From positions 62,001-126,000 of the forward strand of contig NZ_QGDD01000010.1 of the NCBI RefSeq assembly GCF_003160695.1: a stretch of DNA of 64,000 nt, given 5' to 3'. Below the pieces are notes generated by a model that was given only the letters and a program-made list of their open reading frames with translations, had not been told where the DNA came from and did no database searches. The stretch comes from Nocardioides silvaticus (GTDB lineage: Bacteria; Actinomycetota; Actinomycetes; Propionibacteriales; Nocardioidaceae). Position 1 is the stretch's first letter. Every line of letters begins with the position of its first letter. Shown piece by piece: positions 28,754-61,159 of this stretch. Both the position numbers and the translations under genes were made by a program.

Positions 28754-28809
28754 CCGGGACCTGTGGACCGCGACTTCTCGTGTCGTACCCCCGGTCTAGG
28801 GTTCCGGGC

Positions 28810-30816
28810 ATGTCCGGGGCCGATCACGAAGCGCTGCGCGCGACGCTCGCCGCGGCCGTCGAGGCTCTCGGCGGCAGCGAGCGCACCGGACAGATCGCGA
28901 TGGCCGAGGCGGTCGCCGAGTCGATGGCCGAGCAGCGCCACCTGCTCGTCCAGGCCGGCACCGGCACCGGCAAGTCGCTCGGCTACCTCGTCCCCGCGCT
29001 CCGGCACGACAAGCGGGTGGTCATCGCCACGGCGACCCTCGCGCTCCAGCACCAGCTGGTCGAGCGCGACCTGCCGCGACTGGTGAAGGCGGTCGAGAAC
29101 CGCGCGGGGGTCGACACGTCGTACGCCGTCCTCAAGGGCCGCTCCAACTACGCCTGCCTGCACCGGATCCGCGAGGGCGTGCCGGACGAGCAGGGAGAGC
29201 TGATCCAGGCCGAGGCCGCGCTCGGCGCCATGGGCAAGCAGGTCATGAAGCTGCGCGAGTGGGCCGAGGAGCAAGTCGAGTCCGGTGGCACCGGCGAGAA
29301 GGACACCGCCCCGCGGCACACCGACCGCGAGTGGCGGCAGGTCAGCGTCACCGCGCGCGAGTGCGTCGGCGCTGCGAAGTGCCCGTTCGGCGAGGAGTGC
29401 TTCGCCGAGCGCGCCCGCGAGAAGGCCCACAAGTCGCACCTCGTCGTCACCAACCACAGCGTGCTCGCGATCGACGCGATCGAGGGGGTGCCGCTGATCC
29501 CCGACTACGACGTCGTGGTGATCGACGAGGCCCACGAGCTCACTGCCCGGGTGACCCAGGCGGCCACCGACGAGCTGTGGGCGTCCGAGGTGGAGCGCGC
29601 CGCCCGCCGGGCGGCGCGACACACGAAGACCGACAACGGCGACCCCGCGGGCGACCTCGAGGACGCCGCCGCCGTGCTGCGCGGCGCGATCGGGGAGGCC
29701 CGGCCCGGACGGCTGGAGGCGCTGCCCGACGACCTCGCCGACGCGCTCTCCCTGGTGCGTGACGCGGCCCGAGCGCTGGTGAGCGCGTTCCCGAAGGCGG
29801 ACCCGTCCGACGAGGCGGACGCCGGCCTCACCCAGGCCAAGGGCAACGTCCAGGAGCTGTTCGCCACCGCGGACCGGATGGCCGCCAACGCCGACTCCGA
29901 CGTGCTGTGGCTGACCGAGGGCACCGACCGGCTGCCCCCGCGCCTCTGCGTCGCGCCGCTCCAGGTCTGGGGACCGCTCCGCGACAAGCTGCTCGCCGAC
30001 AAGACCGCGATCATGACGTCGGCGACGCTGATGCTCGGCGGCGACTTCACGACGGTGGCGACCTCCGTCGGACTCAAGCCGAGCGAGCGGGTGCCGCTCG
30101 GGTCGGTCGAGGAGACCGAGCCCGATGCCGAGCCGTGGGTAGGTCTCGACGTGGGCAGCCCGTTCGACTACGGCAAGCAGGCGATCCTCTACGTCGCCCG
30201 GCACCTGCCCCAGCCCGGACGCGACGGCCTGGGCAAGGCCCAGCTCGACGAGATCACCGAGCTGGTCGATGCGGCGGAGGGCCGCACTCTCGGGCTGTTC
30301 TCGAGCCGGCGCGCGGCCGAGACCGCGGCCGACCACGTCCGCGAGAAGCTTCCGCACCTCACCACGCTGGCGCAGGGCGACGCTCAGCTGCCCGAGCTGG
30401 CGCGGCAGTTCGTGGAGGACCCGCACACCTGCCTCTTCGGCACCCTCGGTCTGTGGCAGGGCCTCGACGTCCCCGGCGACACCTGCCAGCTGGTGATCAT
30501 CGACCGGATCCCGTTCCCCCGACCCGACGACCCGCTGATGAGCGCTCGCCAGCGCGCGGCCGACCAGGCCGGCGGCAACGGGTTCATGCAGGTCGCCGCC
30601 ACCCACGCGGCGCTGCTGCTCGCCCAGGGCGCCGGTCGGCTGATCCGCACCCACGCCGACAAGGGCGTGGTCGCCGTCCTCGACCCGCGCCTGGTCACCG
30701 CCCGCTACGGCAGCTTCCTCAAGGCGAGCCTGCCGCCGATGTGGACGACGACCGACCCGGCCGTGGTGCGCAAGTCACTCGCGCGGCTCGCCGCCTCCGC
30801 CTCGGTCGCGGAGTAG
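28810..30816 (+). CDS. DinG/YoaA-type ATP-dependent DNA helicase
   Basis: A 668-residue superfamily-2 (XPD-like) helicase that unwinds DNA 5' to 3' and resolves R-loops or damaged forks in relatives. Walker A QAGTGTGKS, DEAH box VVIDEAHEL, and the C-terminal motif QGAGRLIRTHADKGVVAVLD. The Fe-S cluster cysteines are C in NYACLHRI and the set in ECVGAAKCPFGEECF. ATG 28810 is preceded 7 nt upstream by TAGGGT (28797-28802), suggesting a leaderless mRNA. It lies convergent to lexA, consistent with but not proving SOS involvement; no LexA box is at its own promoter. Confidence 0.92.
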   Translation: MSGADHEALRATLAAAVEALGGSERTGQIAMAEAVAESMAEQRHLLVQAGTGTGKSLGYLVPALRHDKRVVIATATLALQHQLVERDLPRLVKAVENRAGVDTSYAVLKGRSNYACLHRIREGVPDEQGELIQAEAALGAMGKQVMKLREWAEEQVESGGTGEKDTAPRHTDREWRQVSVTARECVGAAKCPFGEECFAERAREKAHKSHLVVTNHSVLAIDAIEGVPLIPDYDVVVIDEAHELTARVTQAATDELWASEVERAARRAARHTKTDNGDPAGDLEDAAAVLRGAIGEARPGRLEALPDDLADALSLVRDAARALVSAFPKADPSDEADAGLTQAKGNVQELFATADRMAANADSDVLWLTEGTDRLPPRLCVAPLQVWGPLRDKLLADKTAIMTSATLMLGGDFTTVATSVGLKPSERVPLGSVEETEPDAEPWVGLDVGSPFDYGKQAILYVARHLPQPGRDGLGKAQLDEITELVDAAEGRTLGLFSSRRAAETAADHVREKLPHLTTLAQGDAQLPELARQFVEDPHTCLFGTLGLWQGLDVPGDTCQLVIIDRIPFPRPDDPLMSARQRAADQAGGNGFMQVAATHAALLLAQGAGRLIRTHADKGVVAVLDPRLVTARYGSFLKASLPPMWTTTDPAVVRKSLARLAASASVAE

Positions 30817-30847: not shown

Positions 30848-31543
30848 CTACACCCGCCGCAGGACCGCGGTGACCTTGCCGAGGATGGTGGCGTTGGTGC
30901 CGTCGATCGGCTCGAACGCGTCGTTGTGGGGAAGCAGCCAGACCTTGCCGCCCTTGCGCTGGAAGGTCTTGACCGTCGCCTCGCCGTCGATCATCGCGGC
31001 GACGATCTCGCCGTTCTCGGCGGTGGGCTGCTGGCGGATGACGACGTAGTCGCCGTGGCAGATGGCCGCGTCGATCATCGACTCGCCAGTGACCTCGAGC
31101 AGGAACAGCTGACCGTCGCCGACGAGCTGCTTGGGCAGCGGGAAGACGTCCTCGACGCGCTCCTCGGCGAGGATCGGACCGCCGGCGGCGATCCGGCCCA
31201 CGACGGGCACGTTCGTCGGGGTGGGGTTGCGGTCGCCGTACCCGGTCGCGCTGTCGGTCTGCTGCATCGACTCCGGCAGCACGACCTGGAGCGCACGGGG
31301 GAGGCTCGGGTCCTTCTTGAGGTAGCCCTTCTCCTCCAGCACCCGCAGCTGGTGGGCGACGCTGGACGTGCTGGTGAGCCCGACGGCGCTGCCGATCTCC
31401 CGCATCGACGGCGGGTAGCCGCGCTGGTCGATGCTGTCCTTGATGTGCTGCAGCACCCGCTGCTGGCGCGGCGTGAGGCCGGTCGCGTCGGCAGGGCCGT
31501 CGGGAAGCTCGCTGACCTTCTTGTCCGCCTGGTGGTTGGGCAT
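30848..31543 (-). CDS. lexA: SOS repressor LexA
   Basis: Represses DNA-damage genes and self-cleaves when RecA is activated. 231 residues. The N-terminal winged helix includes [20 protein letters not shown] and [12 protein letters not shown]. The cleavage site is Ala-Gly in [10 protein letters not shown]; the catalytic Ser is in [10 protein letters not shown] and the Lys in [12 protein letters not shown] 31543 (MPNHQADKK) is chosen because the frame further upstream runs through the operator cluster. Four LexA-box-like sites lie between it and the divergent LysM gene, the nearest 33 nt upstream of the start, giving autoregulation. Confidence 0.95.
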
Positions 31544-31575: not shown

Positions 31576-31591
31576 TCAAACATCTGTTCGA
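31576..31591. promoter_or_regulatory. LexA box (SOS box) 1
   Basis: TCAAAC-ATCT-GTTCGA matches the actinobacterial TCGAAC-N4-GTTCGA consensus at 11 of 12 positions. It is the site closest to lexA. Confidence 0.75.
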
Positions 31592-31613
31592 ACCGGCGTG
31601 TCGCGACACGCCG

Positions 31614-31629
31614 TCGAACAAAGTTTCGA
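31614..31629. promoter_or_regulatory. LexA box (SOS box) 2
   Basis: TCGAAC-AAAG-TTTCGA, 11 of 12 consensus positions, 38 bp from box 1. Confidence 0.7.
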
Positions 31630-31645
31630 AGGGTCCTTGATCCGT

Positions 31646-31661
31646 TCGAACAGGTGATCTA
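31646..31661. promoter_or_regulatory. LexA box-like site 3 (weak)
   Basis: TCGAAC-AGGT-GATCTA, 10 of 12 consensus positions, 32 bp after box 2. Confidence 0.45.
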
Positions 31662-31680
31662 ACCTCGTACACGTGTTCGA

Positions 31681-31696
31681 TCGAACTGTTGATCGA
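31681..31696. promoter_or_regulatory. LexA box-like site 4
   Basis: TCGAAC-TGTT-GATCGA, 11 of 12 consensus positions, overlapping the perfect palindrome GTTCGATCGAAC (31675-31686). It is the site nearest the LysM gene. Confidence 0.65.
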
Positions 31697-55480: not shown

Positions 55481-55954
55481 ATGGACGCACACTTCGACCC
55501 GGGCGACCGGCGGTTGGTGCTGATCGACATCGAGAACGTCGTCGGCGGGCTGGTGCTGCACGAGCGCGCCGCCGGGCACGCGCGCTGCTCGATCGAGGAA
55601 GCGGTGGGGACGCGCCCGATGGACCAGGTCGTGGTGGCGACCTGCCACAAGGGCTACCCGCACGTCGCGTGGACCTGGCCGAGCGCCCGGCGGCTGGTGC
55701 GGTCGGGGCAGGACGGCGCCGACCTCGAGCTGCTCGACGTCCTCGACGAGGAGGTGGCCGACCACTTCGAGCACGTCGTGCTGGTCTCGGGCGACGGGAT
55801 CTTCACCGACGCCGTCACCGCGCTCGAGCGCAGTGGGGTGCGGGTGACGATCGCCGCCCGGCGCGGGCACCTCAGTGGCCGGCTCCGGCTGGCGGCGTCG
55901 GAGGTGGTCTACCTCAACGGGACCTGGGAGGCGCAGGAGAGGGTGGCGATCTGA
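55481..55954 (+). CDS. NYN-domain (PIN-like) putative RNase
   Basis: 157 residues. PIN/NYN acid residues: LVLIDIENVVGGL, GQDGADLELLDVL and VLVSGDGIFTDAVTALERS, then VRVTIAARRGHLSGRLR. Length is right for the single-domain LabA-like group. Probably a metal-dependent RNase acting on structured RNA. Confidence 0.8.
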   Translation: MDAHFDPGDRRLVLIDIENVVGGLVLHERAAGHARCSIEEAVGTRPMDQVVVATCHKGYPHVAWTWPSARRLVRSGQDGADLELLDVLDEEVADHFEHVVLVSGDGIFTDAVTALERSGVRVTIAARRGHLSGRLRLAASEVVYLNGTWEAQERVAI

Positions 55955-55958
55955 GGTA

Positions 55959-56160
55959 GGGGTCTCGATACGTCCTCGCGCAGGGCGCTCGGACTACTCG
56001 ACCACCGGAGGGGTCACCTTGACCACCGGAGGGGTCTCGATACGTCCTCGCGCAGGGCGCTCGGACTACTCGACCACCGGAGGGGTCTCGATACGTCCTC
56101 GCGCAGAGCGCTCGGACTACTCGACCACCGGAGGGGTCACCTCGACCACCGGAGGGGTCG
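55959..56160. repeat. Tandem GGGGTCTCGATACGTCCTCG repeats
   Basis: Units of ~53 bp start near 55959, 56031 and 56082 (GGGGTCTCGATACGTCCTCG ... GGACTACTCGACCACCGGAG). Short CACCTTGACCACCGGAGG pieces lie between and after them. They fill the 207-bp gap between the convergent NYN and M1 peptidase genes. Confidence 0.9.
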
Positions 56161-56161
56161 G

Positions 56162-57940
56162 CTACCCGAGGATCTTGTCCAGGGTGAGCTGCGCGACCGG
56201 GTGGTAGCCGGGGCGGGCACGGGCGTAGACCTCGCGCGCCCGCCCGAGCCCGCGGTCGGTCGCGGCGAGCTTGAGGTAGACCTTCTTGATGTAGAGCGCC
56301 CGGCCGTGGCGGGTGAGGAAGTCGGCCATGGCGGCGTCGACATCGGGGCGTTCGAAGAGGTAGCCGGCGTCGATGACCTTCTCCAGCCACGCGGTCGCGT
56401 TCTCGATGTTGCCGCTGCGGCTCAGGCCGAACGTGGCGTCGGCGTCGTCGAACCGCTCGAACGGCAGGTCGTCGGGAAGCGCGCGGATGAAGTGCACCCA
56501 CTGCTGGGAGACCCAGTCGCCGGTCGCGAGCTCGGCAGCAGGGCGGCCGGAGAGGAACGCGGTCACCTCGGCGTCCACCCGGTCGAAGGCGTCGGAGGTG
56601 AAGTGCGGCTCGTTGTCCGGCACGCCCGGCCCGCGCACCCAGGCATCGACCTGCAGGTCCTCATCCGTGATGCCGGCCGGCTCCAGCAGCTCGGCACGCA
56701 GGTAGGAGAGGAAGGTCTCGGTGTCCATCGACTCGAAGGCGAACCGCTCGAAGTAGCCGCGCAGGAACGCGTCGAACCTCTCCCGCCCCACGGCGGCTTC
56801 GATGGTGCGGAGGAACAGCGACCCCTTCTCGTAGGGGATCTTCGACGGGCCCTCGTCGGGGTCGGTGAGGTCGAGCTCCAGCCAGGTGTCGCGCGGCTTC
56901 TCGACCGCGAGCCAGTGCTCGAGCTCCTGGCGTCCGAGCCGCAGGATCATGGCGGCGTAGTCGGCGCCGAACAGCTCCTCGTCGATCCGCGTCTCGAAGT
57001 AGACGGTGAAGCCCTCATTGAGCCAGATGTCGTTCCACGTCGAGTTCGTGACCAGGTTGCCCGACCACGAGTGCGCGAGCTCGTGCGCGACCACGGTCAC
57101 CAGCGACCGGTCGCCCGCGAGCAGGGTCGGCGTCGCGAAGGTGAGCCGCGGGTTCTCCATGCCGCCGTACGGGAAGCTCGGCGGCAGCACCAGAAGGTCG
57201 TAACGGCCCCAGCGGTAGGGCCCGTAGAGTCGCTCGGCGGCTTCCATCATCTTCTCGGTGTCGGCGAACTCCCACGCCGCCGCGTCGACCACCGACGGCT
57301 CGGCGTAGACGCCGGCGCGCTCGCCGAGGGCCCGGAACTCGAGGTCACCGACGGCGAGGGCGACGAGGTAGGCCGGCACCCGCGTGTCCATCGCGAACCG
57401 GTAGACCCCGTCGTGGGCGCGCTCGGTCGGGTTGGTCGCGCTCATCACGGCCAGCAGGTCGGACGGCACTCGCAGGACGGCGTCGTACGACGCGCGCACG
57501 CCCGGGCTGTCCTGGCAGGGGATCCAGCTCCGCCCGAGGATCGGCTGGTTCTGGGTGAAGAGGAACTGCTTGCCCGACGCGGTCTGCTCCGGCTCCAGCC
57601 ACTGCAGCGCCCGCGCGTCGTCGGTCGTGGCGTAGTGGACGACGACCCGGCTGACCGATCCCACCTCGATGGTGAGCGGCTGCCCGAGGATCGGGTCGTG
57701 CTCGCCGAGCTCCCACCGCAGGTCGCTGCCGTGCCCGTCGGTGACCGCCGAGATCGCGAGCTGCCAGGTGTCGAGGACGAGCGTGCCCGCGTCCGGGGAG
57801 CTGACGTCGAGGTCGAGGGTGGCCCGTCCCGCCAGCCGGCGCGCATCGAAGTCGGCGGTCAGGTCGAGCGAGAGATGCCGGACCGCGATCTCGTTGGGCC
57901 GGGCGAACGAGTGCGGGTCGGGGGCGAACGAACGAGCCAT
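56162..57940 (-). CDS. M1-family metallopeptidase, leukotriene A4 hydrolase/ColAP type
   Basis: 592 residues from ATG 57940 (MARSFAPDP). Zinc aminopeptidase: GGMEN exopeptidase motif in FPYGGMENPRL, HELAHSW with the zinc His pair and Glu, and NEGFTVYFE with the third zinc ligand. The C-terminal leukotriene-A4-hydrolase-type helical domain (DADATFGLSRSGNIENATAW) is present. Cytosolic; removes N-terminal residues. Not the larger PepN of the E. coli type. Confidence 0.92.
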   Translation of the reverse strand: MARSFAPDPHSFARPNEIAVRHLSLDLTADFDARRLAGRATLDLDVSSPDAGTLVLDTWQLAISAVTDGHGSDLRWELGEHDPILGQPLTIEVGSVSRVVVHYATTDDARALQWLEPEQTASGKQFLFTQNQPILGRSWIPCQDSPGVRASYDAVLRVPSDLLAVMSATNPTERAHDGVYRFAMDTRVPAYLVALAVGDLEFRALGERAGVYAEPSVVDAAAWEFADTEKMMEAAERLYGPYRWGRYDLLVLPPSFPYGGMENPRLTFATPTLLAGDRSLVTVVAHELAHSWSGNLVTNSTWNDIWLNEGFTVYFETRIDEELFGADYAAMILRLGRQELEHWLAVEKPRDTWLELDLTDPDEGPSKIPYEKGSLFLRTIEAAVGRERFDAFLRGYFERFAFESMDTETFLSYLRAELLEPAGITDEDLQVDAWVRGPGVPDNEPHFTSDAFDRVDAEVTAFLSGRPAAELATGDWVSQQWVHFIRALPDDLPFERFDDADATFGLSRSGNIENATAWLEKVIDAGYLFERPDVDAAMADFLTRHGRALYIKKVYLKLAATDRGLGRAREVYARARPGYHPVAQLTLDKILG

Positions 57941-59466: not shown

Positions 59467-59492
59467 CCCAGGGGCCGCGCTGGCAATGACGA
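59451..59492. repeat. Imperfect palindrome, GTCATTGC family, second copy
   Basis: GTCCTCGCCAGCGTGACCC pairs with GGGCCGCGCTGGCAATGAC-like bases around a short loop (TCGCCAGCG / CGCTGGCAA). Related to 8535-8584. The PLDc_N stop (TGA 59464-59466) falls within it. Confidence 0.65.
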
Positions 59493-59496
59493 CCGG

Positions 59497-59646
59497 TCAG
59501 GAGCGAGCGGCGACCAGGTCGCGTTTGCGGCGGAGGTCGCGCCGGGCGCGGCGGTACTCCACCTCGAGGATCAGCGCCACCCGGGCAGGCCGCAGCGCGC
59601 GGACCGCAGGGCGGTCGGCGGCGCGGGTGCGCTGGAGGGTGGTCAC
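59497..59646 (-). CDS. Possible small basic protein
   Basis: 49 residues from GTG 59646: TTLQRTRAADRPAVRALRPA then ARVALILEVEYRRARRDLRR. The composition is strongly basic with plausible helices, and the frame is clean. No ribosome site and no homologue recognised, so it may be noncoding. Confidence 0.3.
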   Translation of the reverse strand: MTTLQRTRAADRPAVRALRPARVALILEVEYRRARRDLRRKRDLVAARS

Positions 59647-59788
59647 AGGACGAGGGTAGGCAGTGGCCGGGCCGCGCGGCTACCGACTTAAGGATGATTC
59701 GGGGTCCGACCAGGGGTAGCCCTGAGGCGTGCCCTCCGTCAGTCTGGTTCGTTAGGGACTCGGGGGGTTCCTTGGGAGGGGGACCAGC

Positions 59789-60022: not shown

Positions 60023-61159
60023 ATGCCCCCACCCACGCTCCGGCTGAACACCGTCCTGGTCACCGACGACGGACCCCGCTACCTGGTCGAGCGCAAGCTC
60101 GGCGCGGGCGGCTTCGGCACGACCTACTTCGGGCACCGGGTCACCAAGAGCGGTCGGGTAATGGAGCTGGCGAAGGTCTGCATCAAGGTGTGCACGAGTC
60201 GGAAGGACTGGCACGGTGAGGCCTTCTTCGGCGAGCTGCTGGCGGACGACCCGCGCGTCGTACGGCTCCGCGACGCCGTCGTGCGGACGACGGGCTCGGG
60301 CACCTCGCAGCGCCGCAAGTACATCTTGATCTTCGACTACATGGAGGGCGGCACCGTCGCCGACGCGATCCGGCGCGGGGAGCTGTGCTGGACCGAAGCG
60401 CGGACCCGGCGCGAGATCAAGGCTCTGCTCCGCCTGCTCGCCCGGTTGCACGATGCCGGCGTCACCCACCGCGACCTCAAGCCCGACAACGTCTACCTCC
60501 GCGACGGCAAGCTGGTCGTCGGCGACTTCGGGATCACCCAGCTCGACCTCGACCCGCGGCACAGCAGCGCCTATGCGATGTCCCCGAGGTTCGCGCCCAA
60601 GGAGGCGGTCGCCTCGTGGCGCTGGGGCCAGGCCGACGACGTCTTCCAGGTCGGGCTGCTCGCGGCGACCCTGGTGTCCGGCGAGACCTGGGGCACCGAG
60701 ACGGTCTCGGTGCCGGCGATCTCGCGGCTGCCGGTGAGCGACGAGTTCAAGAGCTGGATCTGGCACGCCACCGGCGCGAAGGCGAAGCGCTACTGGGACG
60801 CCGGCGACGCCATCGAGGCCCTCGACGCCTTGCGGACGACGAGCATCGCACCCGGCCGGGTGCCGCGCTCCCTGGCGGGGCAGGTGGTCGTGTTCACCGG
60901 CGGCATCGCCGGGATGCCCCGGCGCGAGGCGGCCGAGGCCGCCCGCAGCGCCGGTGCGGTCGTGCAGAGCTCGGTCGGCGACGCGACCACGCTGGTCGTC
61001 GTCGGCAAGGTCAACCGCGGCGCCGGCGCCAACGAGGGACTCAAGCTGTTCGCCACCCGGGAGCGGCTGCGTCGTGGCCAGGACATCCGGGTCATCAGCG
61101 ACGCGCAGTTCAGGCGCGCGGTCCGGTCGCACTCCCGGCGGGCGGTCCTGGCGCCCTAG
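60023..61159 (+). CDS. Ser/Thr protein kinase with C-terminal BRCT domain
   Basis: 378 residues from ATG 60023. The Hanks-type kinase is intact: G-loop LGAGGFGTTYFG (27-32 glycines), Lys55 in VCIKV, HRDLKPDN (149-156) and DFG (168-170). After residue ~280 comes a BRCT-like domain (LAGQVVVFTGGIAGMPRREA, AEAARSAGAVVQSSV, TLVVVG), the fold used by NAD-dependent ligase and RFC for phosphopeptide or DNA-end binding. GAGACT (60011-60016) is 6 nt upstream. Suggests a kinase directed to DNA or phosphoproteins. Confidence 0.88.
   Translation: MPPPTLRLNTVLVTDDGPRYLVERKLGAGGFGTTYFGHRVTKSGRVMELAKVCIKVCTSRKDWHGEAFFGELLADDPRVVRLRDAVVRTTGSGTSQRRKYILIFDYMEGGTVADAIRRGELCWTEARTRREIKALLRLLARLHDAGVTHRDLKPDNVYLRDGKLVVGDFGITQLDLDPRHSSAYAMSPRFAPKEAVASWRWGQADDVFQVGLLAATLVSGETWGTETVSVPAISRLPVSDEFKSWIWHATGAKAKRYWDAGDAIEALDALRTTSIAPGRVPRSLAGQVVVFTGGIAGMPRREAAEAARSAGAVVQSSVGDATTLVVVGKVNRGAGANEGLKLFATRERLRRGQDIRVISDAQFRRAVRSHSRRAVLAP

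Follow-up and report, generated by a model that had tools for sequence, protein, structure and literature searches.

Can a bacterial serine/threonine kinase report on the state of the chromosome through a BRCT domain carried on the same polypeptide? The question is raised by a gene near the end of the stretch of DNA analyzed here (64,000 nucleotides, referred to as the window), whose product joins a Hanks-type kinase to a C-terminal BRCT domain. Whether Ser/Thr phosphorylation serves bacteria as a report of DNA breaks is debated, and the case rests largely on YabT and RqkA-like kinases, whose DNA contacts are not well characterized. Here the kinase is covalently attached to a module that is well understood and offers four pocket residues for mutation; such a protein would make the question directly testable, in vitro as well as in an actinobacterium from the environment, and may be a bacterial counterpart of the human kinases that signal DNA breaks. 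The gene is preceded by a ribosome-binding-type sequence, GGGGAGGGG, located 5' of the ATG at 60023, and the features discussed below are as follows:

60023..61159, plus strand: kinase-BRCT gene, ATG to TAG, 378 amino acids (full-length homologues; dN/dS)
60083..60838, plus strand: Hanks-type Ser/Thr kinase domain, residues about 21-272 (PF00069, AlphaFold, structural matches)
60866..61126, plus strand: BRCT domain, residues about 282-368 (PF00533, hhalign, predicted fold)
60896..60901, plus strand: T292-G293, first half of the BRCT phosphate pocket (alignment conservation)
60920..60922, plus strand: R300, pocket arginine, eight residues past T292 as in RFC1 and LigA (invariant)
61043..61045, plus strand: K341, pocket lysine at the start of helix alpha2 (invariant)

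A rare fusion under purifying selection

Is the fusion a genuine protein? Full-length homologues occur in a congener (G054, 84% identity) and in two species belonging to a different genus of this family (G577, 55%; G697, 54%). Compared with the congener, dN/dS is 0.20 for the whole gene, 0.18 for the kinase and 0.25 for the BRCT part, next to 0.27 for the neighboring hydrolase, and purifying selection thus acts on both parts; the deeper comparisons gave values of 0.5-0.8, on which we place no interpretation because third codon positions exceed 90% GC. Full-length relatives and dN/dS together establish a real, selected family and not an artefact of assembly or reading frame.

The survey of kinase-BRCT fusions that the sequence-only reading had called for found them to be rare but real, with carriers in two genera, amounting to two of the 216 genomes of the genus and four of the 342 of the family. 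At the thresholds used, no further fusion was found in 395 genomes of the class, 396 of the phylum and 295 of the order, nor, at 80% coverage, among 72,556 plasmids or 50,697 phages. Searches of viral contigs returned no relative of the fusion, of the BRCT set or of the LigA BRCT, and the kinase signature WHGEAFF had no viral match. When the whole protein was searched against genome contigs, only generic, mostly myxobacterial kinases were recovered, with a BRCT-coding frame in none of the 78 loci. The nearest other relative is a BRCT-less kinase of 267 amino acids (G142, 41% identity). In G142 (L087:8644-11481), a GmrSD-type restriction gene precedes this kinase gene by 57 bp, with both on one strand, and the two may form a restriction-kinase pair.

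Within the 4.5 Mb genome, 21 Pfam kinase matches exceed the cut-off, with the kinase-BRCT protein among the weakest-scoring, and only LigA and the kinase-BRCT gene match BRCT. The usual bacterial BRCT proteins are, according to a review, DNA ligase and a Pol III subunit (PMC10386641). In the literature searched, mostly open-access papers, a bacterial protein joining kinase and BRCT was not described. Both domains are of known kinds; their joining in one bacterial protein is, as far as searched, a new domain architecture with a putative function.

The kinase domain

The N-terminal part is a Hanks-type kinase by profile (PF00069 at residues 21-222, 81 bits, E 1.1e-22, cut-off 31.7) and by predicted structure, with pLDDT values mostly between 80 and 96 and weaker in alphaC and the activation loop. 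Its best structural matches are PknB, PknI and PKMYT1. The catalytic set of Hanks-type Ser/Thr kinases (K, E, HRD, N, DFG) is complete in all four members of the family, in which G29, G32, K55, E66, H149-R150-D151, K153, N156, D168-F169-G170, D206 and R256 are identical, as is S181 in the activation segment; glycine-loop residue G27 is a serine in one member. The initial claim that all kinase motifs are intact therefore holds for the catalytic residues but overstates the case for the P+1/APE stretch, which reads FAPKE, FAPKE, FAPGN and FAPRD across the four members: FAP is kept, N or D replaces the APE glutamate (E194) in G577 and G697, and a GT-type P+1 motif is absent from the alignment. Since the catalytic residues are conserved while the P+1/APE stretch diverges, the enzyme looks active, with an unusual substrate-binding loop. 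This divergence also weighs against the reading as a DNA-end kinase developed below, leaving the type of substrate, and even activity, putative.

The sequence-only reading had also set this protein apart from the usual PknB cell-wall type, and this was borne out. No transmembrane segment was seen in the protein (the 19-residue hydropathy maximum is 1.22), which is accordingly predicted to be soluble and cytosolic, and there is no PASTA match. It does not belong to the PknB family as modeled by NCBIfam, scoring 45 bits against a cut-off of 450. The kinase-BRCT protein shares its kinase fold with PknB-type actinobacterial kinases but differs from them in the missing membrane and PASTA part, in the divergent P+1/APE stretch, and in having no link to the cell wall.

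The C-terminal domain is a BRCT of the exonuclease-BRCT/LigA/RFC1 subclass

PF00533 matches residues 284-330 above its cut-off of 21.3, scoring 26.2 bits when the whole protein is scanned and 29.1 bits when the scan is confined to the C-terminal part. Among the relatives, G577 scores 28.1 bits, G054 lies just below the cut-off with 20.5, and G697 is not listed; despite these Pfam scores, the C-termini of G054 and G697 align with the BRCT throughout. As the Pfam match was limited to the N-terminal portion of the domain, three more tests of its identity were run. In hhalign, a profile of the four C-terminal parts matched 25 LigA BRCTs of the phylum with a probability of 98.6% (E 7.9e-16, 80 columns). 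The fold prediction of residues 274-378, the region for which such a check had been proposed, gave a BRCT and not some other fold, with a mean pLDDT of 85.5 and a pTM of 0.77; its predicted elements (E15-18, H27-36, E40-42, E51-54, H64-77, E83-86, H87-103) follow the BRCT topology beta-alpha-beta-beta-alpha-beta-alpha. The alignment rows for this prediction were 23 BRCTs from phage contigs, drawn from a search of viral contigs for a VSKKTDY-type DNA pattern that yielded 36 phage BRCT loci, with homologues from the genome search left out, and kinase and BRCT were folded separately rather than as one full-length model. In Foldseek against the PDB, the best matches were the BRCTs of LigA, RFC1, Rad4 and TopBP1 (probability 1.00, TM about 0.57-0.61).

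Profile searches also placed the domain within the BRCT superfamily. The best NCBIfam match of the C-terminal part is the exonuclease-BRCT PRK06195 (1.4e-10, whole domain), followed by LigA (2e-8), and the profile of the BRCT set matched E. coli LigA (4.5e-17) and the human RFC1 BRCT (2k6g/2k7f, 5.8e-17) in the PDB. The C-terminal domain, read as a BRCT from the start, is one, and belongs to the exonuclease-BRCT/LigA/RFC1 subclass, a type of module with which repair and replication proteins hold on to broken DNA ends.

A conserved phosphate pocket and a positive charge

What might this domain bind? An alignment of 24 diverse BRCTs has just eight invariant columns (T292, G293, R300, V318, T322, V326, G328, K341), and four of them, T292, G293, R300 and K341, form the pocket. 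All four kinase-BRCT members have T/S, G, R and K at these positions without exception, in the pattern of the RFC1/LigA-type pocket: T/S-G in beta1, R at +8 and K at the start of alpha2. These are the residues that reportedly bind the 5'-phosphate in RFC1 p140 (Kobayashi et al. 2010). For the isolated RFC1 BRCT, PMC9293004 cites an affinity of ~10 nM for DNA with a recessed 5'-phosphate; in intact RFC, the BRCT contacts DNA through another face (PMC9293009). In other BRCTs the same pocket takes phosphopeptides or poly(ADP-ribose), the latter in the equivalent pocket of XRCC1 (PMC6334254). In each of the four members, the C-terminal part carries a charge between +8 and +13, versus -3 for the LigA BRCT of the window's genome. 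Pocket and positive charge favor DNA ends over phosphopeptides, without settling the matter.

Genomic context and regulation

Upstream of the kinase-BRCT gene lie genes for a NERD-domain protein, a PLDc_N protein and a putative membrane protein of 66 amino acids; downstream, an alpha/beta hydrolase follows at 9 bp and then DUF5122-type propeller proteins. The gene order in G054 is kinase, propeller, hydrolase, while the fusion in G577 is flanked by an EamA-like transporter (by eye) and a secreted protein without assignment. No repair gene and no defence gene adjoins the fusion in any of the four genomes, and the neighborhood in the window holds no repair or replication gene. Judging from context, the kinase-BRCT gene works by itself, since no neighbor is common to both genera. 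In G697 (L090:8287-11479), the fusion is oriented divergently from the gene for a GAF-SpoIIE phosphatase of the PP2C type, behind which come STAS-like (by eye) and HATPase_c_2 proteins; the phosphatase is a possible counter-phosphatase in this genome only.

The locus of G221 retains the M1 aminopeptidase, the hydrolase and the HHE-like protein and lacks the kinase, which identifies the kinase-BRCT gene as an accessory element in a variable gap. We also considered a mobile island and dropped the idea, as there is no tRNA nearby and no mobile gene was recognized next to the fusion; the accessory status is unaffected. Regulation by the SOS response was likewise rejected: the promoter of the kinase-BRCT gene contains no LexA box (the best match has 4 mismatches) and no RecA-NDp-type motif, with the cluster of boxes at the lexA promoter in the window serving as positive control for the LexA-box scan. 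Any link to damage would consequently have to be post-translational.

A putative DNA-end kinase and its alternatives

How could the two domains work together? We favor, at a probability of about one half, a cytosolic Hanks-type kinase that is tethered to or activated by DNA ends, with the BRCT as sensor or tether. The BRCT would hold DNA ends by the 5'-phosphate at a nick, gap or break, and end-bound BRCTs would concentrate two or more kinase molecules. Trans-autophosphorylation could follow, with which the HRD arginine and the invariant S181 are compatible, and phosphorylation would then be steered to proteins already present at the break or fork. Candidate substrates, inferred from the examples of YabT and RqkA, are RecA-, SSB- or division-type proteins. 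The earlier proposal of phospho-signaling at breaks or replication sites thus gains from the BRCT subclass and its pocket and finds nothing to lean on in the gene neighborhood or the promoter. More tentative, and in our view doubtful, is a stronger version: a break-reporting kinase in a single polypeptide, switched on by 5'-phosphorylated ends in the BRCT pocket and operating beside the LexA/RecA SOS response, as a counterpart of ATM/DNA-PK or Chk-type kinases.

The pocket could instead read protein. Bacterial kinase pathways of other kinds use FHA domains as phospho-readers, and the BRCT could play a comparable part by recognizing the autophosphorylated kinase or its substrate, for processive or feed-forward phosphorylation in which DNA is not involved. 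Eukaryotic BRCT pockets, including those of some single BRCTs, bind phosphoserine (PMC10386641), T/S292 and K341 are conserved, and with the BRCT covalently attached to a kinase, a phospho-ligand close at hand is plausible. However, the nearest sequence relatives are BRCTs of DNA metabolism, the pocket arginine has the spacing of RFC1 and LigA, and the strong positive charge suits DNA, so that we consider a phosphopeptide reader unlikely. Even less probable is a role for the BRCT as a mere dimerization or scaffold module that pairs kinase domains, with ligand and DNA incidental. Phosphate-free BRCT-BRCT contacts are known, as in XRCC1-LigIII (PMC10386641), and Hanks kinases become active as dimers, but this leaves unexplained why the pocket is conserved while the rest of the BRCT drops to about 54% identity; we see only a slim chance that it is correct.

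A defence function would place the same sensor in another setting: the BRCT would detect the free ends that phage DNA exposes on injection or degradation, and the kinase would stop host processes, like the PD-T4-6 or Stk2-type kinases. The best PADLOC matches are indeed the mad6 and PD-T4-6 kinases, the nearest named profiles for this kinase domain, the distribution is patchy and accessory, in a variable gap between conserved genes, and the G142 relative follows a restriction gene. Yet these matches reflect a generic kinase domain, with 66.8 bits against a cut-off of 460 for MADS6 (PD-T4-6 has no cut-off in PADLOC); neither system has a counterpart of the BRCT; the fusions lack defence neighbors; and phages, plasmids and viral contigs held no relative at useful coverage. 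We therefore regard an anti-phage kinase as quite improbable.

Finally, we would like to place the putative DNA-end kinase among known systems. YabT of Bacillus subtilis, which is activated by DNA and phosphorylates RecA and SsbA (PMC6333020), is likewise a bacterial Hanks kinase without extracellular sensor, but contacts DNA through a disordered basic juxtamembrane stretch, has a transmembrane helix and lacks a BRCT. In Deinococcus radiodurans, RqkA (DR2518) is a damage-responsive Ser/Thr kinase whose activity is stimulated by DNA ends (PMC11007091, PMC6052341); its sensor, in contrast, is a PQQ-binding/WD40-type repeat region. If our inference holds, the kinase-BRCT protein would work like these kinases while belonging with neither, as its sensor differs. 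With LigA, RFC1 and the exonuclease-BRCT protein (PRK06195), it has the BRCT subclass and the T-G ... R (+8) ... K pocket in common, whereas in those proteins the BRCT is paired with a ligase, clamp loader or exonuclease and here with a kinase.

Other features of the window

Some 350-530 bp upstream of the kinase gene, the interval 59490-59690 looks conserved in G054 (L086:10359-10568); no convincing gene could be assigned to it, although it may hold a small minus-strand gene. Just 3' of the M1 aminopeptidase gene, GC-rich direct repeats at 55914-56207 would encode RDPSGG-type or GGVSIRPRAGRSDYSTT-type peptides. Farther upstream, five LexA-box-like sites lie within ~120 bp (31577-31695), between lexA (minus strand, Peptidase_S24 and LexA_DNA_bind, end at 30848) and a divergent small LysM gene (plus strand, from about 31790), with a DinG-like helicase nearby at 28780-30816. 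The interval forms the promoter region of lexA, and the whole is a standard SOS locus of actinobacteria in which the operators are densely clustered.
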